Source: Chloroflexota bacterium (GTDB taxonomy: Bacteria > Chloroflexota > Dehalococcoidia > DSGV01). Taken from it: a DNA stretch of 45,078 nucleotides. The notes beneath the pieces were generated by a model. It had not been told where the DNA came from, did not search any database, and was given only the letters and a program-made list of their open reading frames with translations. Made by a program: the position numbers and the translations under genes. The stretch is from NCBI GenBank assembly GCA_021787985.1, contig JAJYLG010000002.1, forward strand, positions 1-45,078, written 5' to 3'. Below are positions 28,000 through 37,210 of the stretch, one piece after another (the first letter of the stretch is position 1; the number at the start of each line of letters is the position of its first letter).

Positions 28000-28914
28000 C
28001 TACTGCTCGATGGGCCTGCTGCGGTCGTTGCCCCATTCCAGCCAGGAGCCGTCGTAGACGCGCACGTGATCGTAGCCCAAGAGCCGCAGCGTGAAGAGCG
28101 CGTGGGCCGCTCGGACCCCCGTCTGGCAGTAGGTAATGACTTCCTTGTCCGGTGAGACCCCCGCCTTCTCGAACATGGCGCGCAGCTCCTCCGCGGAATG
28201 CCAGGTGCGCGGCTCCGAGGTAGTGAGCGCGCGTGTCCACTCGAGGTTGACCGCCTTCGGTATGTGACCGCCGCGGGCAGCGCGTACGTCGGAGCCCTGG
28301 TACTCGGCGAGGGAGCGGGCATCCAGGATCACGACCTTCGGGTCGGAGGTGGCTTTCTGGACGTAGTCCGCGAGAGCGACGGCGTTCGGGTTGGCCTGCG
28401 CGGTGAAGGTCGCCTTCTGGACGGTAGGAATCTCCTTGGTGGTGGGCAGGCCGGCTTTCTGCCACTCCTGCCAGCCGCCGTTCAGCACCTTGCCGCCGTC
28501 GTGGCCGTAGTAATCGAGCACCCACCACAGCCGCGTCGCCCAGAGCCCGCCCTGGTCGTCGTAGGCGACCACCGTCGTTGTGTCGCCCACCCCCAGCTCG
28601 CCCATGTACTGCGCGAAGAGCGAGTCGCGGATGACGTGAAGCTTGTCCTCCGGGTCCTTGAGCTTGGCGGAGTCGTACCAGATGGCGTTGGGGATATGTC
28701 CGGCCTCGTACGATTGCCTGCTGCGCAGGTCCACGACCCGCACCGCGGCGCCGTTGAGGTGGTCGCGCAGCCAGCCGGTCTCGGCCAGCATCTCGGGATG
28801 GGCGTAAGCGGTGCGCTCGCCGGTCGGTGTGGCGAGCTGAGGAGCCTTGCCCGCGCAGGCCGCCAGCCCGGCGGCCAGGGCGAGGCCGAGGATTACGAGA
28901 AACCAGCGTCGCAT
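28000..28914 (-). CDS. Lipoprotein rhodanese (thiosulfate sulfurtransferase), two domains
   Basis: A 304-residue exported lipoprotein: hydrophobic N-terminus with lipobox LAAC at about residues 17-20, then two rhodanese domains. The C-terminal one holds the catalytic loop ITYCQTGVRAAH (Cys about 260); the N-terminal one has AYDDQGGLWATR, with aspartate in place of cysteine, so it is inactive as usual in thiosulfate sulfurtransferases. The extracytoplasmic location implies that it acts on thiosulfate or sulfane sulfur outside the membrane, next to the YeeE-type importer. ATG 28914 has GGAAGGAG upstream, and it follows tusA by 20 bases. Confidence 0.92.
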   Translation of the reverse strand: MRRWFLVILGLALAAGLAACAGKAPQLATPTGERTAYAHPEMLAETGWLRDHLNGAAVRVVDLRSRQSYEAGHIPNAIWYDSAKLKDPEDKLHVIRDSLFAQYMGELGVGDTTTVVAYDDQGGLWATRLWWVLDYYGHDGGKVLNGGWQEWQKAGLPTTKEIPTVQKATFTAQANPNAVALADYVQKATSDPKVVILDARSLAEYQGSDVRAARGGHIPKAVNLEWTRALTTSEPRTWHSAEELRAMFEKAGVSPDKEVITYCQTGVRAAHALFTLRLLGYDHVRVYDGSWLEWGNDRSRPIEQ

Positions 28915-28934
28915 GGTCGACTCCTTCCGCCGCG

Positions 28935-29219
28935 CTACTCGCCGGAGAGCTCGGCGGCGCGGCGCGCGATCTCGTGTGCCACCTGGCTCGCGTCGTCCGC
29001 CGTGCTCGCGCGCTCGAGGCGGATGCGCCACTCCCCGGGGCCGACGACCTCGATGGAGAAGGTGAAGCCTTGCTTGGCGCCCTCCCAAGGGACCGTCGAC
29101 AGCGCCGGCGCGTGGTCGGTGAGCACCTCCAGGCCTTCCCCGGCCGGCAGGCGCTGCAGCGCCGCCCGCGCCTTCATGGCCGGATAGGGGCACATCTCCC
29201 CGCGTACATCGATCTGCAT
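28935..29219 (-). CDS. TusA-family sulfur carrier
   Basis: A 94-residue TusA-like protein. It begins MQIDVRGEMCPYPAMKARAA, with the sulfur-carrying cysteine in the CPxP motif, and ends in the beta-strand region (WRIRLERA) of the family. In YeeE-YeeD pairs this protein accepts sulfur from the imported thiosulfate. The start is ATG 29219, which has GGGAGGCG upstream; the five extra residues up to 29234 lack support. Central gene of a three-gene sulfur operon. Confidence 0.9.
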   Translation of the reverse strand: MQIDVRGEMCPYPAMKARAALQRLPAGEGLEVLTDHAPALSTVPWEGAKQGFTFSIEVVGPGEWRIRLERASTADDASQVAHEIARRAAELSGE

Positions 29220-29243
29220 GCGCGCCTCCCGCATGCCGGTCGG

Positions 29244-30482
29244 TCAAGCCAACCGGCGGATGATCTGCACACCGACGAAGGCGCCCCCGAGGAGCCCCAT
29301 GGCGAACACCCACCCGCTCAGCGCCAGCGAGGGCACGGAGGAGAAGAACGCGCCGATGGTGCAGCCGAGGGCCAGACCCGCACCGTAGCCCATCAGCGAC
29401 CCGCCGACCAGGAGCTGCGGGTAGCGCGACTTGCGGCGAGACCAGCGGAGCTTGAACTCGCGCGCGAGGACGGCGGCGGTGAACGCGCCGAACACGAGGC
29501 CCGCGTCGAGGGTGGTGCTCGCGGTCAACCACGATCCGCCGGCCACCAGGTTGCAGCCGGAGAAGCGGTCCGTGCCGATCAGCGGCCCGACCGACGCGCC
29601 GAACAGCCCCGTTCCCCGGTTTGCCCAGGTCGACAGCTCGCCCGTCACCCCGAGCGGGTGCTGGAAGGCGTAGCTGAAGAGGTTCAGAACGGCCAGCGCC
29701 ACGCCACCGACGAGGTAGGGCCAGCCGTTCCCACCGAACACGGCGTTCCATCCCTGCCGGAGCTGAGCTCGCACGCCGAGCGCCGGAGGCGTCACCTTGC
29801 GCGGTGGCGCGGACGCCAGCCGCGGCGAGCGCGTCTCCCACCAGAGGATGGCCAGGTAGGACCCGGCCAGGGCGGCCACGACCAGCGCGACGGCGCCGCC
29901 GTGACCGAGCCGAGCCGGCAGCCATACCGCGGAGCGATACTGGATGTCGTTCTGCCACCACCAGCCCCAGGTGTGCGCCGCGGCTGAAAGCCCCACCAGG
30001 ATGCCGAGCATGGCGACCCACGAATTGAGGTAGCCCTCGCCCATGCGCCACAAGGTGCCGGAGATGCATCCGCCGGCCAGCACCATGCCGATGCCGAACA
30101 GCACCCCGCCGACGATCGTGCTGAACCCGACGGGCAGCACATGTGCGCCGGGCGGCAGCGAGCCGAAGGACGGGTCGGGCACGAAGCGCGCCATCAGCAA
30201 GGAGAAGCCGAGCGTGGCGACGACAAGCCCGGCGATGATCGCCCGCATCAGACGGCCGTCGTTGCTCAAGACCAGGTCACGGAACGCGCCGGCGAAGCAC
30301 AGCCTGCTGCGCTGCAAGATGACGCCGAACGCCAGCCCGATGGCCCAGTAGGCGGCCACGTCCAGGCCGGCGCGCGTGGCCAGGAGCAGGAGCACGAGCG
30401 CCAGCGCCACGGCGGCGGCGCCGAGCCAGGGAAGCGGCAGCGAGAGCGGCGTCCGTCGCAGCGCCTGTAGCCGAGCTTCCAT
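29244..30482 (-). CDS. YeeE/YedE (TsuA-like) thiosulfate transporter
   Basis: A 412-residue membrane protein of about nine to ten helices. It has the conserved cysteine and glycine motifs of the YeeE/YedE (DUF395) family: RSRLCFAGAFRD, AGGCISGTLWRMGEG, FSGCNLVAGG and LALGCTIGAFFSS. Characterised members (TsuA) pass thiosulfate through the membrane along a line of conserved cysteines. With TusA and the lipoprotein rhodanese it forms a sulfur-acquisition operon. ATG 30482 has only a weak ribosome binding site; a good promoter is 30 bases upstream. Confidence 0.92.
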   Translation of the reverse strand: MEARLQALRRTPLSLPLPWLGAAAVALALVLLLLATRAGLDVAAYWAIGLAFGVILQRSRLCFAGAFRDLVLSNDGRLMRAIIAGLVVATLGFSLLMARFVPDPSFGSLPPGAHVLPVGFSTIVGGVLFGIGMVLAGGCISGTLWRMGEGYLNSWVAMLGILVGLSAAAHTWGWWWQNDIQYRSAVWLPARLGHGGAVALVVAALAGSYLAILWWETRSPRLASAPPRKVTPPALGVRAQLRQGWNAVFGGNGWPYLVGGVALAVLNLFSYAFQHPLGVTGELSTWANRGTGLFGASVGPLIGTDRFSGCNLVAGGSWLTASTTLDAGLVFGAFTAAVLAREFKLRWSRRKSRYPQLLVGGSLMGYGAGLALGCTIGAFFSSVPSLALSGWVFAMGLLGGAFVGVQIIRRLA

Positions 30483-33003: not shown

Positions 33004-34443
33004 CTAGCCTTGTGTCGCCACGGCCCGCAGGAACCGCGCTGGTTCGGCCAGGAACTGTCGGCGGCACGGTTCGCTGCAGAAGAGGAACTCCTCCGCCTCG
33101 TAGTCGGCGATCAGCGCCTTCGCCCGGTCCAGGCGCATCCCGCAGACCATGTCGCGCGGTTCGCCGGTCAGGCCCACCAGCGCCGCCCGGCCGTCCGTGT
33201 GCTGGGCGACGCCCGCCAGCGAGGCGTACAGGCGCAGCTCGTCGGCGATCAGGCGCGTGAGCAGGAACCGCTCGCGCACCCGCTCCTTGCCGCTGGCCCC
33301 CAGCTCCCTGGCTTCCTCAGGATGCCGGAGCAGCCACAACGTGCGCTCGGCGCACTCCTCGACCGAGTGGACGAGGAAGCCGCCGGCCCCGTCTCGAAGC
33401 TGCAGTGGGATGCCGCCGGCGTCACCGGCAACCACGGGCGTCCGTTTCCACAGCGTCTCCGAGACGACGAGCCCGAATCCCTCGCGGATCGACTTCTGGA
33501 TGACCACGTCCGATAGGCGCTGGAACGCGTTGACCTCCACATTGCTCACGCCGGTGAGGTTGGTGAAGAGGTGAATGCCCGGGTCGCCGGTCGCGGCCTC
33601 CTGGATCTGGCGGTACATGTCCCAACCCTCCGGGTCGTCGAGGGCCATCGAGCCCACGAGCGCGAGCTGGAGGTCCGGCACCTCGCGCTTTACCAGACGA
33701 TACGATTCGATGACCCCCAATGGGTCCTTCCACGGGTCGAAGCGCGATACTTGCGTGACCAGCGGCTTGTCGACCTCGACGCCGATCCAGCTCAGGACGC
33801 GCTGCGCGATCTCCGGCGGGAGGTCGAGGTTCTTCGGACTCTCGGGGTCGATGGCGGGAGGGATGATCTCCAGGCGCGGGACCGGCAGACGCTCCGGCAC
33901 GAAGCCGCCGAGGGTGAACACGGCGGCGTCGTAGCCCACCACGAAGGGTTGCAAGAAATCCCACACCTGGGGATTGGGCTCGGACGTGTCGATGTGGCAG
34001 CGCCAGGCCCACCTGGCCTGGCCCTTGCCGTGGAAGTGGAGCAGCGCCAGGGGCTGCGGGTCGTGCACCACCACGATGTCATACGACTCCTCGAGCAGCT
34101 TGGCGTTGCGGATGGAGTTGGTCAGGTACGCCTCCTGCTCCTCCGGCGTCAGCGCTGGCTCGGCGCCCTGCAGGCCGTTGTGGATCTTCTTGGTGACGCG
34201 GAAGAAGGCTTCGTCCCCGGTGATGAGCTTCCAGTCGGCCACCAGTCCCAGGTCCCGCAGCAGCGGCACCTCGGAGCGCAGGATCTCGGCGACCCCGCCG
34301 CCGTAGGGCGTGGCGTTGACGTGGAGGACACGCAACCCACGCAGTGGGGCCGCGAGCTCGTGCAGCCGCGCGAGCGCCCCAGCCCCGACGCTGGCGTCGT
34401 ATCTGCTCAAGCTCTGAACTCCCGCATCGACGGTCTCGAGCAC
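33004..34443 (-). CDS. TreT-like trehalose glycosyltransferring synthase with C-terminal YHS domain
   Basis: A 479-residue GT4 glycosyltransferase. [20 protein letters not shown] at about 39-58, the [15 protein letters not shown] segment, [20 protein letters not shown] and the C-terminal [18 protein letters not shown] are those of trehalose synthase (TreT), which joins a nucleotide sugar (ADP- or UDP-glucose) and glucose into trehalose. The last 50 residues are a YHS domain (DMVCGMRLD, then [12 protein letters not shown]), a cysteine motif normally found in metal-transport proteins; this fusion is unusual. GTG 34443 is the start, with GAGGGCGG upstream. Divergent from the membrane glycosyltransferase gene. 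Confidence 0.9.
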
Positions 34444-34654: not shown

Positions 34655-36517
34655 GTGTTGTTCTCACGCGCGACGGCGGCCGCGTCCTCGGGTCTGCCGG
34701 CAGGCGCGACCGCCGACCGGCGCGCTCGCGCGGCGCGGCCGACTGCTGCCTGGCCGGTGGCAGCGGCGCTGGCGGTAGCCGCGGCGCTCGGGCTGCCCTC
34801 GCTGCTCTGGCCGCTGGGTATCGACCAGGGGATCTTCGCCGTTTTCGCGCGCGCCATGCTGCACGGCGAGGCGCCCTACCGCGCGGTGATCGACATCAAG
34901 ACGATCGGCATCTACGCCCTGTACATCGTCCCGCTGCTCTTGCCGCTGCCGTACGCTCACGCGCTGCGGCTCGTGGACTGGGTCTACCAGCTCGCAACCC
35001 TCGCCGCGCTGGGCGCTCTCGCCTGGCGCCTATGGGACCGACGCGTCGCAGCTCTGGCCGTGTTGCTGGCGGCGCTCGCCTACTGGCCGCGTTTCGGCTG
35101 GTGGAACACCGCCCAGGCCGAGAGTTTCGCGATCCTGCCCATCACCTTGGCGCTCCTGCTGGCGCTCAAAGCGACGGACGATTCGCCGGCGCGCTGGTCC
35201 TTGCCGGGGAAGGGTTGGCGCTCGTTGGCGGCGGGGCTTCTGCTCGGCTTCGCCGTGCAGGTGAAACTGCCCGCGGCCGCCTTTCTGTTCGCGCTGCCGC
35301 TGGTGGAATGGCTCGGTGGCTGGCGCGCAGGCTGGGGGCGGCGCCTCCTGCTCGCGGCCGCTGGCTTCGTCATCGTGCAGGCGGCGGGCCTGCTCTACCT
35401 CGTGGCCGTGGGCAGCCTGGGCGACTTCATCGCCGTGATGCGGGCGGCCACCGGCTACACGCGCCTGGCGGACGGCCATTTTGGGCTGCATCCGCCGCTG
35501 GACTATCGCCTCTATCTGGCGCGCGTCTGGCCGCTCTGGTTCCTCAACACCGTGGCGGTGCTTTACGTCCTTCCTGCAACCTTCGCCGTGGCCGATGCGC
35601 TGGCGCCCGACCGCCCACGCGCGACGCTCCTGGTGTGCGCGCTGGTGATACTGGGCAGCTTGGCGGTCTTCGCGCAGGACAAGTTCATCGACTACCACTG
35701 GCAGCTCGTCACGCCCTTCCTCGCCCTGCTCGCGGGGCGTGGTCTGATGCGGCTGCACGACCTCTTGTGGGCCCTGGTCCCCCGGATCCTGCCGCGGCTC
35801 GCGGTCGAGCTCGTCATCGTCCTCGCGTTGCTGTATGGCAGCCCCGCCATCACCCAGGGTGTCCACGGCATGTTCGATGACGCTCGCGTCTACTTTCAAC
35901 ATCCGGCGGAGGGCCATCGCGCGTTCTACCTCCGCTTCGGCGACCCAGGCGCCGGCGGCTTCTCGGTCGTCGGCACTACCGAGCTGGCGCGCTACATCCG
36001 TGCCCATACCCGACCCACGGACCGGGTCGTTATCTTCAACATGGGCGGTGCGGCGGTGCTGGTGGAGTCCCATCGCGAGAGCGCCACGAGCATCCTACCG
36101 AGCCTGCTGGCGTTCGCGGACTGGACCCCGCCTGGCTGGCGGCAGGCGTTTGTGCGTCAGGTCGAGGAGCGCAAACCGGCGCTGATCGCGATCGGCGGCG
36201 GCGATGCCGGCCCCTGGGTCACCGGCAACACGCTCGACTCGCGGGCGGCTTTCGAGCGCTGGCCCGAGTTTCGCGACCTGGTGCGGCAGCAGTACCGGCT
36301 GGCGGCCCACGTGCAGAACTACGATGTCTATCTCCGCGTCCGCCCATCCTCCGCCCGCGAGCGCGGCTCGAACCGCTACCGACGGTGGGCCGGATCCAGC
36401 CACTCCTGGATCCGGCAGGCGAGCCCGGTCAGCTTAACCACCTCCACGACGGCCAGGGGGAACAGCGACAGCGCGAGTACGCCAACCCACTCCGGCCCGG
36501 AGAGGGGATGGGTGTGA
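34655..36517 (+). CDS. GT39/ArnT-like membrane glycosyltransferase, 3' end run-on
   Basis: A 620-residue polytopic protein with about ten helices. The first periplasmic loop reads [21 protein letters not shown] followed by [12 protein letters not shown], the D-x-x-x-x-x-x-x-x-x-x-G-x-x-P-Y pattern of the PMT/GT39-like (glycosyltransferase RgtA/B/C/D) family, which use polyprenyl-phosphate sugars. The soluble C-terminal domain is at about 480-590. The last 45 codons are Ser/Thr/Arg-rich and overlap the 3' end of the convergent mini-ATPase gene by 142 bases; the natural stop probably stood near 36370. GTG 34655 is chosen on the promoter spacing, GTG 34640 being the alternative. Confidence 0.8.
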
Positions 36518-37053
36518 AAGGCCGGTTGCAGGAACGGCAGCTCACAGGTCGCCAGCAGCAGCCCAGCGGAAACGGCCACAGCCAGCAGGAGCCAGCGATT
36601 GCCGCCCGGGCGGGTGAGCGGCCGGGTGGCGCTGCGGAATCCGAACGCGGCGAGGCGGCCCTCCTGGACGGCCGCCACGATTGAGGCGAAGTTGTCGTCC
36701 AGCGGCACCATGTCCGACGCCTCGCGCGCGACCTCGGTGTCGCCGCGGCCCATCGCCACGCCGACGTCGGCGGCGCGCAGCGCGGGCGCGTCGTTGACGC
36801 CATCGCCCGTCATTGCCACGACCTGGCCGGAGCGGCGGTAGGCGTGCACCAGCCGCAGCTTGTGCTCGCTGGTGGCACGGGCGAGCACGGTCGCGCGGGT
36901 GCCGACATCGGCAAGCCGCGCGTCGGCCTCGCCCGCGGACAGTCCGCGCTGCGGGTCCACCTCCAGCAGCCGGGCGACCTCCAGGGCCGGCAGAGCGTGG
37001 AAGCCCCGACCAACAGGTGTGGGCGTAGCGTCCCGCCGTGTCGGGCGTGCCAT
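36376..37053 (-). pseudogene. Internally deleted P-type ATPase (225-residue frame)
   Basis: The frame joins three pieces of a P2-type ATPase that is normally about 900 residues: the N-terminal cation-ATPase domain ([20 protein letters not shown]), the end of the P domain ([38 protein letters not shown]) and the last two helices ([38 protein letters not shown]). Missing are the actuator TGES, the phosphorylation site DKTGT, the nucleotide domain and most helices. Both joins keep the frame and no stop occurs. It cannot pump ions; it is most likely a decaying gene, less likely a small regulatory protein. ATG 37053 lies behind a weak site; TTG 37068 would add five residues. Confidence 0.75.
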
Positions 37054-37210
37054 GCTCCAACCTTGCAACAGGTGAGGCGCCCGCGTCAGCCCATGGCGGG
37101 CGCGGCCCAGCGGGTAAGAACGTCACTCAGACCGCGGCCCATTCCGGCCGACCAGATGCCGCGCGAGCGGCGCGAACCTGGGCAGGTTCCGCCGTGACGC
37201 GGTCGGCTGA

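Follow-up and report, generated by a model that had tools for sequence, protein, structure and literature searches.

Trehalose synthases of the TreT type with solved structures (PDB entries 2x6q/2xa1 and 6zj4) comprise 400–416 residues and have no C-terminal tail. An actinobacterial TreT, that of Rubrobacter xylanophilus, was reportedly described by Nobre et al. in 2008, and some of the fused proteins presented below are likewise actinobacterial. Among enzymes linked to a YHS domain, the only case with biochemistry that we found is the class IIIc adenylyl cyclase of M. phlei, in which an 8-aa linker joins the catalytic domain to a YHS tail with one Asp and three Cys (PMC4626032, of which selected sections are drawn on throughout). 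In the presence of Mg2+, this cyclase was active only upon addition of Cu2+, best at 1–10 µM; Zn, Fe(II), Fe(III), Cr, Co, and Ni gave no activity, and none was seen after EDTA quenching. The same source proposes Asp plus three Cys as the metal ligands of YHS domains and gives four Cys for the TRASH protein L24e.

The window analyzed here, the whole 45,078-nt stretch of a Chloroflexota genome, encodes a protein that joins these two families on its minus strand (Table 1). The initial annotation had read a TreT-like GT4 part followed in frame by a C-terminal YHS motif, and both were confirmed by Pfam matches within the minus-strand ORF 33004–34443; the interval 33004–33153 that it had assigned to the motif corresponds to the YHS domain together with the five C-terminal residues and the stop codon. 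The plus strand across this interval encodes something unrelated, and the GTG start agrees with the MLxxxD start of relatives.

Table 1. The TreT-YHS gene of the window and its parts (residue numbers refer to the window protein; fused proteins were picked by a cysteine pattern)
Feature	Position	Strand	Extent, evidence, or conservation
TreT-YHS gene	33004..34443	-	479 aa; GTG start at 34443, stop 33004-33006
TreT catalytic part (GT4, GT-B fold), residues 1-409	33217..34443	-	Pfam, PDB sequence match, AF2 fold match
Linker, residues 410-430	33154..33216	-	Length varies among relatives; low pLDDT
YHS domain, residues 431-474	33022..33153	-	PF04945; pLDDT of full model
Glu321 (33481-33483) and Glu329 (33457-33459), EX7E active-site pair	33457..33483	-	18/18 fused proteins
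Asp431, expected first metal ligand	33151..33153	-	Asp 17/18, Cys 1/18; role by analogy (PMC4626032)
Cys434, expected metal ligand	33142..33144	-	18/18 fused proteins
Cys456, expected metal ligand	33076..33078	-	18/18 fused proteins
Cys460, expected metal ligand	33064..33066	-	18/18 fused proteins

In Pfam hmmscan searches, TreT_GT1 (PF21269) matched residues 41–182 (2e-53, 180.4 bits against a curated cut-off of 27) and Glycos_transf_1 matched residues 224–388 (5.4e-21, 75.3 bits against 26.4). The nearest solved structures by sequence are the TreTs of P. horikoshii (2x6q, 1e-116) and T. uzoniensis (3.1e-111), which match the window protein to about residue 412 only. Its AlphaFold2 model (mean pLDDT 89.4, pTM 0.89) superposes on T. 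uzoniensis TreT 6zj4 with a Z-score of 48.2 and an rmsd of 1.6 over 395 residues and on P. horikoshii 2x6q with a Z-score of 45.7; the matches of this whole-model search were filled by GT-B entries, and the search is hence informative on the glycosyltransferase only. An EX7E Glu pair, an Arg, and a Lys are active-site residues of retaining GT4 enzymes. The Glu pair, Arg234, and Lys239 are shared with the solved TreTs, as are the GT4 domains and the fold, and R234, K239, E321, and E329 are identical in all 18 fused proteins. In the alignment with the P. horikoshii enzyme, Glu321 falls on Glu326, which is mutated in entry 2xmp (title E326A). The NCBIfam equivalog NF041139 (TreT_Thcocales) scored 417.1 bits, below its cut-off of 775, which places the window protein outside the Thermococcales TreT subgroup, the model being Thermococcales-specific by name. 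Judged by domains, fold, and active-site residues, the window protein is a TreT-type GT4 trehalose synthase, and it would presumably synthesize trehalose.

The tail matched YHS (PF04945) at residues 431–473 with 7.3e-7 and 29.5 bits in hmmscan, slightly below the curated cut-off of 30.3, and with 34.0 bits, above the cut-off, in a six-frame search of the host genome. Four of nine fused proteins passed the cut-off in hmmscan (L034, 45.8 bits; L035, 44.9; L037, 37.9; L200, 34.2), and L199, at 29.1 bits, fell slightly short as the window protein did. In L005, L006, and L009 YHS was not reported at E≤1e-3 by hmmscan; the cysteines are nevertheless kept. Because the fusions were identified by their match to C-x15-32-C-x3-C, the invariance of Cys434, Cys456, and Cys460 is partly built in, while position 431 lies outside the pattern. 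Seven tail residues (C434, G435, F455, C456, S457, C460, and F464) are invariant in an alignment of the 16 chromosomal fusions, the first and second Cys are 20 to 22 residues apart, and the linker has no invariant column at 406–430. Mean identity among the 18 fused proteins is 42% in the tail and 67% in the glycosyltransferase. In five hand-chosen pairs, dN/dS ranged from 0.10 to 0.80 for the tail and from 0.11 to 0.21 for the catalytic part, the tail being faster in four of the five. Expected ligands that are kept in a tail otherwise less conserved, with higher dN/dS in most pairs, argue for a conserved site rather than a conserved surface.

In the full AlphaFold2 model the last glycosyltransferase helix ends at residue 409, pLDDT falls below 50 at linker residues 415–423, and residues 431–470 form two strands followed by two helices with block mean pLDDT of 85–88; the isolated tail was modeled poorly (pLDDT 62). 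A sequence search of the YHS tail against the PDB gave nothing credible (best E 0.16). In both the M. phlei cyclase and TreT-YHS, a short linker connects an enzyme domain to a C-terminal YHS that has Asp plus three Cys, spaced D-x2-C-x22-C-x3-C in the cyclase and D-x2-C-x21-C-x3-C in the window protein (PMC4626032). By this analogy, the D/C-x2-C-x20-22-C-x3-C set is a putative site for one soft transition-metal ion, most likely copper. The host genome holds two further YHS matches, both on contig C15, in the six-frame search. One of them lies at the N terminus of an 897-aa ATPase that has two HMA stretches and the motif ACPCALG and that we take to be a copper-type P1B pump. The YHS of this CPC-type heavy-metal ATPase belongs to the same Pfam domain as the TreT tail and is 48% identical to it (26/54 aligned positions). 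In P1B-type copper ATPases, however, YHS is attached to a membrane pump, unlike in TreT-YHS.

At least 18 distinct intact TreT-YHS proteins were found, 16 of them chromosomal (the window, G347, G1125, G1141, G137, G100, G430 [L034, KatS3mg060], G403, G464 [L035], G664, G495, G644, G510, G512, G745, and G465 [L037]) and two on Streptomyces linear plasmids. They come from Chloroflexota, Actinomycetota, and one "Deltaproteobacteria" MAG, the phyla of the G genomes being assigned from same-group loci. The architecture is thus not confined to Chloroflexota. A further TreT-YHS, in an Acidimicrobiia MAG (L039 4001–5423), is split across two frames by a frameshift or an assembly error. A scan of contigs for relatives yielded 71 loci. 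Whole-genome searches used the window protein or alignment A1 as query against samples of genomes, the tail being read in fetched loci only. Matches were obtained in 100 of 400 genomes of the host's own phylum (E≤1e-20), 44 of 100 of its nearest relatives (E≤1e-120), 98 of 346 from the phylum of G464 and one of 297 from that of G465 (both E≤1e-140), and 20 of 150 from the class of G347 (E≤1e-140). An assembly or frame artefact was ruled out because 18 distinct proteins share one architecture, some of them encoded on long contigs (2.6, 2.7, 3.2, and 4.4 Mb) and others on plasmids, and a tail unique to the host genome was ruled out by the fused proteins of other genomes. Since its form is kept in 18 distinct proteins, the YHS tail stands far above chance.

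Close homologues of both kinds exist: the tail is present in some, yet 11 close relatives do without it (L036, 74% identical; L188, L131/L132, L183, L007, L008, L021, L038, L010, and L109). Neither outcome named in the initial annotation as refuting it, a missing HMM match to YHS or a tail missing from every close homologue, was obtained. In the part of the tree that holds the fusions, the tail-less proteins extend no more than about 20 residues past the glycosyltransferase. No YHS remnant was recognized in the roughly 700 bases downstream of the 11 genes; a loose cysteine pattern matched four times there, each match being interrupted by a stop. With the tail as tblastn query, one weak match (L183, E 0.007, 36%, about 2 kb away) lacked the cysteine pattern, and the other matches had E of 0.65 or more. 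As no decayed tail was recognized, the tail appears to be either intact or gone.

To follow the history of the fusion, a tree was built from glycosyltransferase columns only (IQ-TREE, midpoint root); 192 TreT rows gave 157 without duplicates, 101 with at least 50% identity or a tail, and 66 in the tree, and the tail label was counted on 65 rows, the frameshifted L039 being left out. Sixteen fusions and L039 fall within a set of 28 rows (support 95/93) that also holds 11 tail-less rows. The smallest set containing all fusions has 25 rows, eight of them tail-less, with weak support (81/58); a set of 26 rows, nine of them tail-less, has support 83/88. The tail label needs seven changes on this tree, against a shuffled mean of 14.6 with none of 500 shuffles as low, and well-supported branches force at least four. 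Tail and glycosyltransferase distances are correlated (Mantel r 0.62 over 18 rows, none of 5000 permutations as high; r 0.55 after thinning to 17 rows, again none of 5000). Because the fusions share one part of the tree with tail-less members and tail and enzyme distances correlate, the simplest reading, and the one that fits best, is one old fusion followed by several losses and by horizontal transfer between phyla. Repeated gains of the tail may offer an alternative history, gain and loss being indistinguishable on this tree.

The host has a second TreT (G000:C52), which is tail-less, lies elsewhere on the tree, and adjoins a GT20 (OtsA-type) gene. Several fusion genomes also carry a tail-less TreT (G464, G465, G466, G664, G495, G510, G745, and G100), and in G495 the tailed and tail-less copies belong to the same part of the tree (L127 and L188). 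Neighboring genes were counted in 17 fused loci (16 intact plus the frameshifted L181; 4.0 to 45 kb) and 16 tail-less loci (3.6 to 19.5 kb), mostly of about 19 kb. These counts are lower bounds because the crude gene caller misses genes, including TreT itself in two of the 17 fused loci (L176 and L180), and they are not independent, since some loci are close kin. OtsA-type genes were nearby in none of the 17 fused and four of the 16 tail-less loci, and OtsB-type genes in none and three, respectively. A GalT-like gene was found in three fused loci, directly downstream every time, and in no tail-less one. P-type ATPases of any kind were not commoner near fusions (5/17 fused, 5/16 tail-less), and those with a CPC motif occurred in 1/17 chromosomal fused loci, 1/11 tail-less loci of the same tree part, and 0/8 loci of other TreTs; two extra CPC pattern matches, in the near-identical tail-less L193/L194, look like chance. 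A metal-gene enrichment around the 17 chromosomal fused loci relative to the tail-less loci is therefore not supported.

Individual fused loci nonetheless include metal and stress genes. TreT-YHS lies near RND efflux genes of the CusAB type in L178; near a cupredoxin-like protein, DUF2933, and a CPC ATPase in L174, with a rhodanese two genes away; near an HMA P-type ATPase with CPD as its motif in L171; and near Usp genes in L168, L173, and L175. Acetate kinase and, by eye, phosphoketolase are encoded near the fusion in L171, with similar genes in L172. Directly downstream of TreT-YHS in L166 (10578–10967) is a small lipoprotein-like ORF bearing CxxCH, cytochrome-c-type by eye, and directly upstream in L178 (8072–8731) is a match to a cbb3-type cytochrome. 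In the window itself, a 230-aa ORF at 36376–37068 on the minus strand joins an N-terminal piece of a P-type ATPase, with almost nothing in between, to the end of the hydrolase domain and the C-terminal domain, and is probably an ATPase remnant lacking the middle. At 28003–30482, also on the minus strand, an ORF with two rhodanese stretches adjoins a Sulf_transp (YeeE/YedE-type) permease, forming a sulfur-handling pair.

The plasmid fusions were drawn from the best 10 of 22 matching plasmid records. Three records hold two distinct proteins, one on S. mirabilis pI and one, under a single shared accession, on pFRL3 and pFRL4, and all three annotate the protein merely as 'glycosyltransferase'. On pI of the soil isolate S. 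mirabilis P16B-1 the gene order on one strand is a heavy-metal ATPase (cupredoxin-like domain, ATPase, C-terminal YHS), ftsH, and TreT-YHS (SMIR_RS40965). On pFRL3 and pFRL4, galT follows TreT-YHS. One flank of TreT-YHS holds merA and Usp, and the other flank holds a CsoR-type repressor (PF02583), ftsH, and, about 8 kb from TreT-YHS, a cupredoxin-YHS ATPase, with domains assigned on pFRL3; HtpX, PspA-like, and CbtAB genes are nearby. The ATPases at L200 24159–26960 and L199 9935–12724 begin with a cupredoxin-like domain and end with a YHS domain. A CPC ATPase is present in all three records, but metal genes abound in plasmid collections. The loci L199, L200, and L201 are metal/stress islands in which heavy-metal ATPases occur together with FtsH, Usp, and metal-sensitive repressors; Hsp20 is also found on pI, and HtpX and merA on pFRL3/pFRL4. 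Such plasmid islands are reminiscent of transmissible stress-tolerance loci of other bacteria. According to the parts of PMC9195940 drawn on here, S. mirabilis that lost pI lost most of its nickel tolerance, some cobalt tolerance, and almost no copper tolerance, and the abstract reports that an S. lividans transconjugant carrying pI gained tolerance to nickel, copper, and cobalt. That paper also describes gene replacement in S. mirabilis P16B-1; its main text makes no mention of trehalose, glycosyltransferase, or YHS.

Occurrence in distant bacteria and on metal-resistance plasmids suggests metal-ion control of TreT-YHS, and the linkage of trehalose synthesis to metal or redox sensing put forward in the initial annotation is plausible by analogy. 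In the scheme that we propose, a TreT paralogue carrying YHS on a flexible linker would convert NDP-glucose and glucose to trehalose and NDP, and its TRASH-like tail would bind a single ion of a soft transition metal, in all likelihood copper. Binding would alter the synthase in its activity, stability, or oligomeric state, and trehalose, or the draw on NDP-glucose, would thereby follow cytosolic metal or the accompanying redox state. A metal-tuned TreT is proposed because of the conserved ligand set and the copper-switched YHS adenylyl cyclase (PMC4626032); the catalytic domain of that enzyme makes cAMP and no sugar, and its copper response is experimental, whereas that of TreT-YHS is drawn by analogy. 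That TreT-YHS binds a metal, which metal this is, and that the enzyme is regulated, in whichever direction, are inferences. We give slightly less than even chances to a TreT paralogue that a soft metal, probably copper, tunes in activity or stability. Against such tuning stand the lack of metal-gene enrichment near chromosomal fusions, the fast tail, the close relatives without one, and the hardly reduced copper tolerance of S. mirabilis upon loss of pI (PMC9195940, in part). The fuller account, in which one ancient fusion spread across phyla, partly via plasmid metal/stress islands, and makes trehalose on direct allosteric copper command without transcription, beside a copper pump with the same sensor domain on the plasmids, we regard as on the unlikely side.

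The tail could instead be a structural zinc finger that permanently holds Zn2+ for stability, oligomer assembly, or partner docking and senses nothing. Structural zinc is frequent in treble-clef relatives, the invariant tail residues in 16 rows are limited to the three Cys plus G435, F455, S457, and F464, and a review legend describes a C-terminal interaction in the P. horikoshii TreT dimer (PMC11046441, of which the legend is used). The M. phlei YHS responds to Cu, however, and Zn2+ gave no activity there (PMC4626032); moreover, the existence of tail-less relatives indicates that the glycosyltransferase needs no structural prop. We consider this zinc finger unlikely, if still a serious contender. 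The three invariant Cys would also suit a redox switch, in which a reversible disulfide, with or without metal, would set trehalose synthesis under oxidative stress. Genes for Usp, rhodanese, cytochrome-type, and pyridine-nucleotide disulfide reductase proteins lie near some fused loci, and oxidation of YHS cysteines was deemed plausible enough for testing in PMC4626032. In that work, as far as the cited sections go, copper nevertheless acted through binding and not oxidation, and the replacement of Asp by Cys in one lineage is more readily explained by a metal site than by a disulfide, which leaves the redox switch a small chance.

A passive metal buffer, a chaperone-like sink riding on a stress enzyme with its catalytic part unaffected, would accord with the terminal YHS domains of copper-type ATPases that the host genome and the TreT-YHS plasmids encode, but one site per 479 aa would make a poor sink, to which free YHS mini-proteins should be superior, and we rate it as quite improbable. 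Lower still is our estimate for a functionless passenger left by an old gene fusion. Its patchy occurrence (missing in 8/25 rows at support 81/58, or 9/26 at 83/88) and the faster evolution of the tail in four of five pairs would be expected of a passenger; unbroken expected ligands in 18/18 proteins at 42% mean tail identity, and the failure to recognize a decayed tail downstream of the 11 tail-less relatives, speak against it.

Searches of the open-access literature for TreT with a YHS domain, a YHS domain with glycosyltransferase, and a TRASH domain with trehalose returned none, subscription papers lying mostly outside their scope, in agreement with the initial annotation, which knew of no described TreT with this extension. 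Among the papers listed on trehalose under copper stress, most concerned plants. TreT-YHS is a new combination of two known domain families. The role of its tail is directly testable, because one part of the tree holds relatives with and without it, in one case within a single genome (G495), and TreT-YHS would offer another soluble, easily assayed case for YHS function. Control of trehalose synthesis is generally ascribed to gene expression or substrate; if a synthase had a metal-binding domain of its own, metal stress would be tied to solute output at the level of the enzyme.
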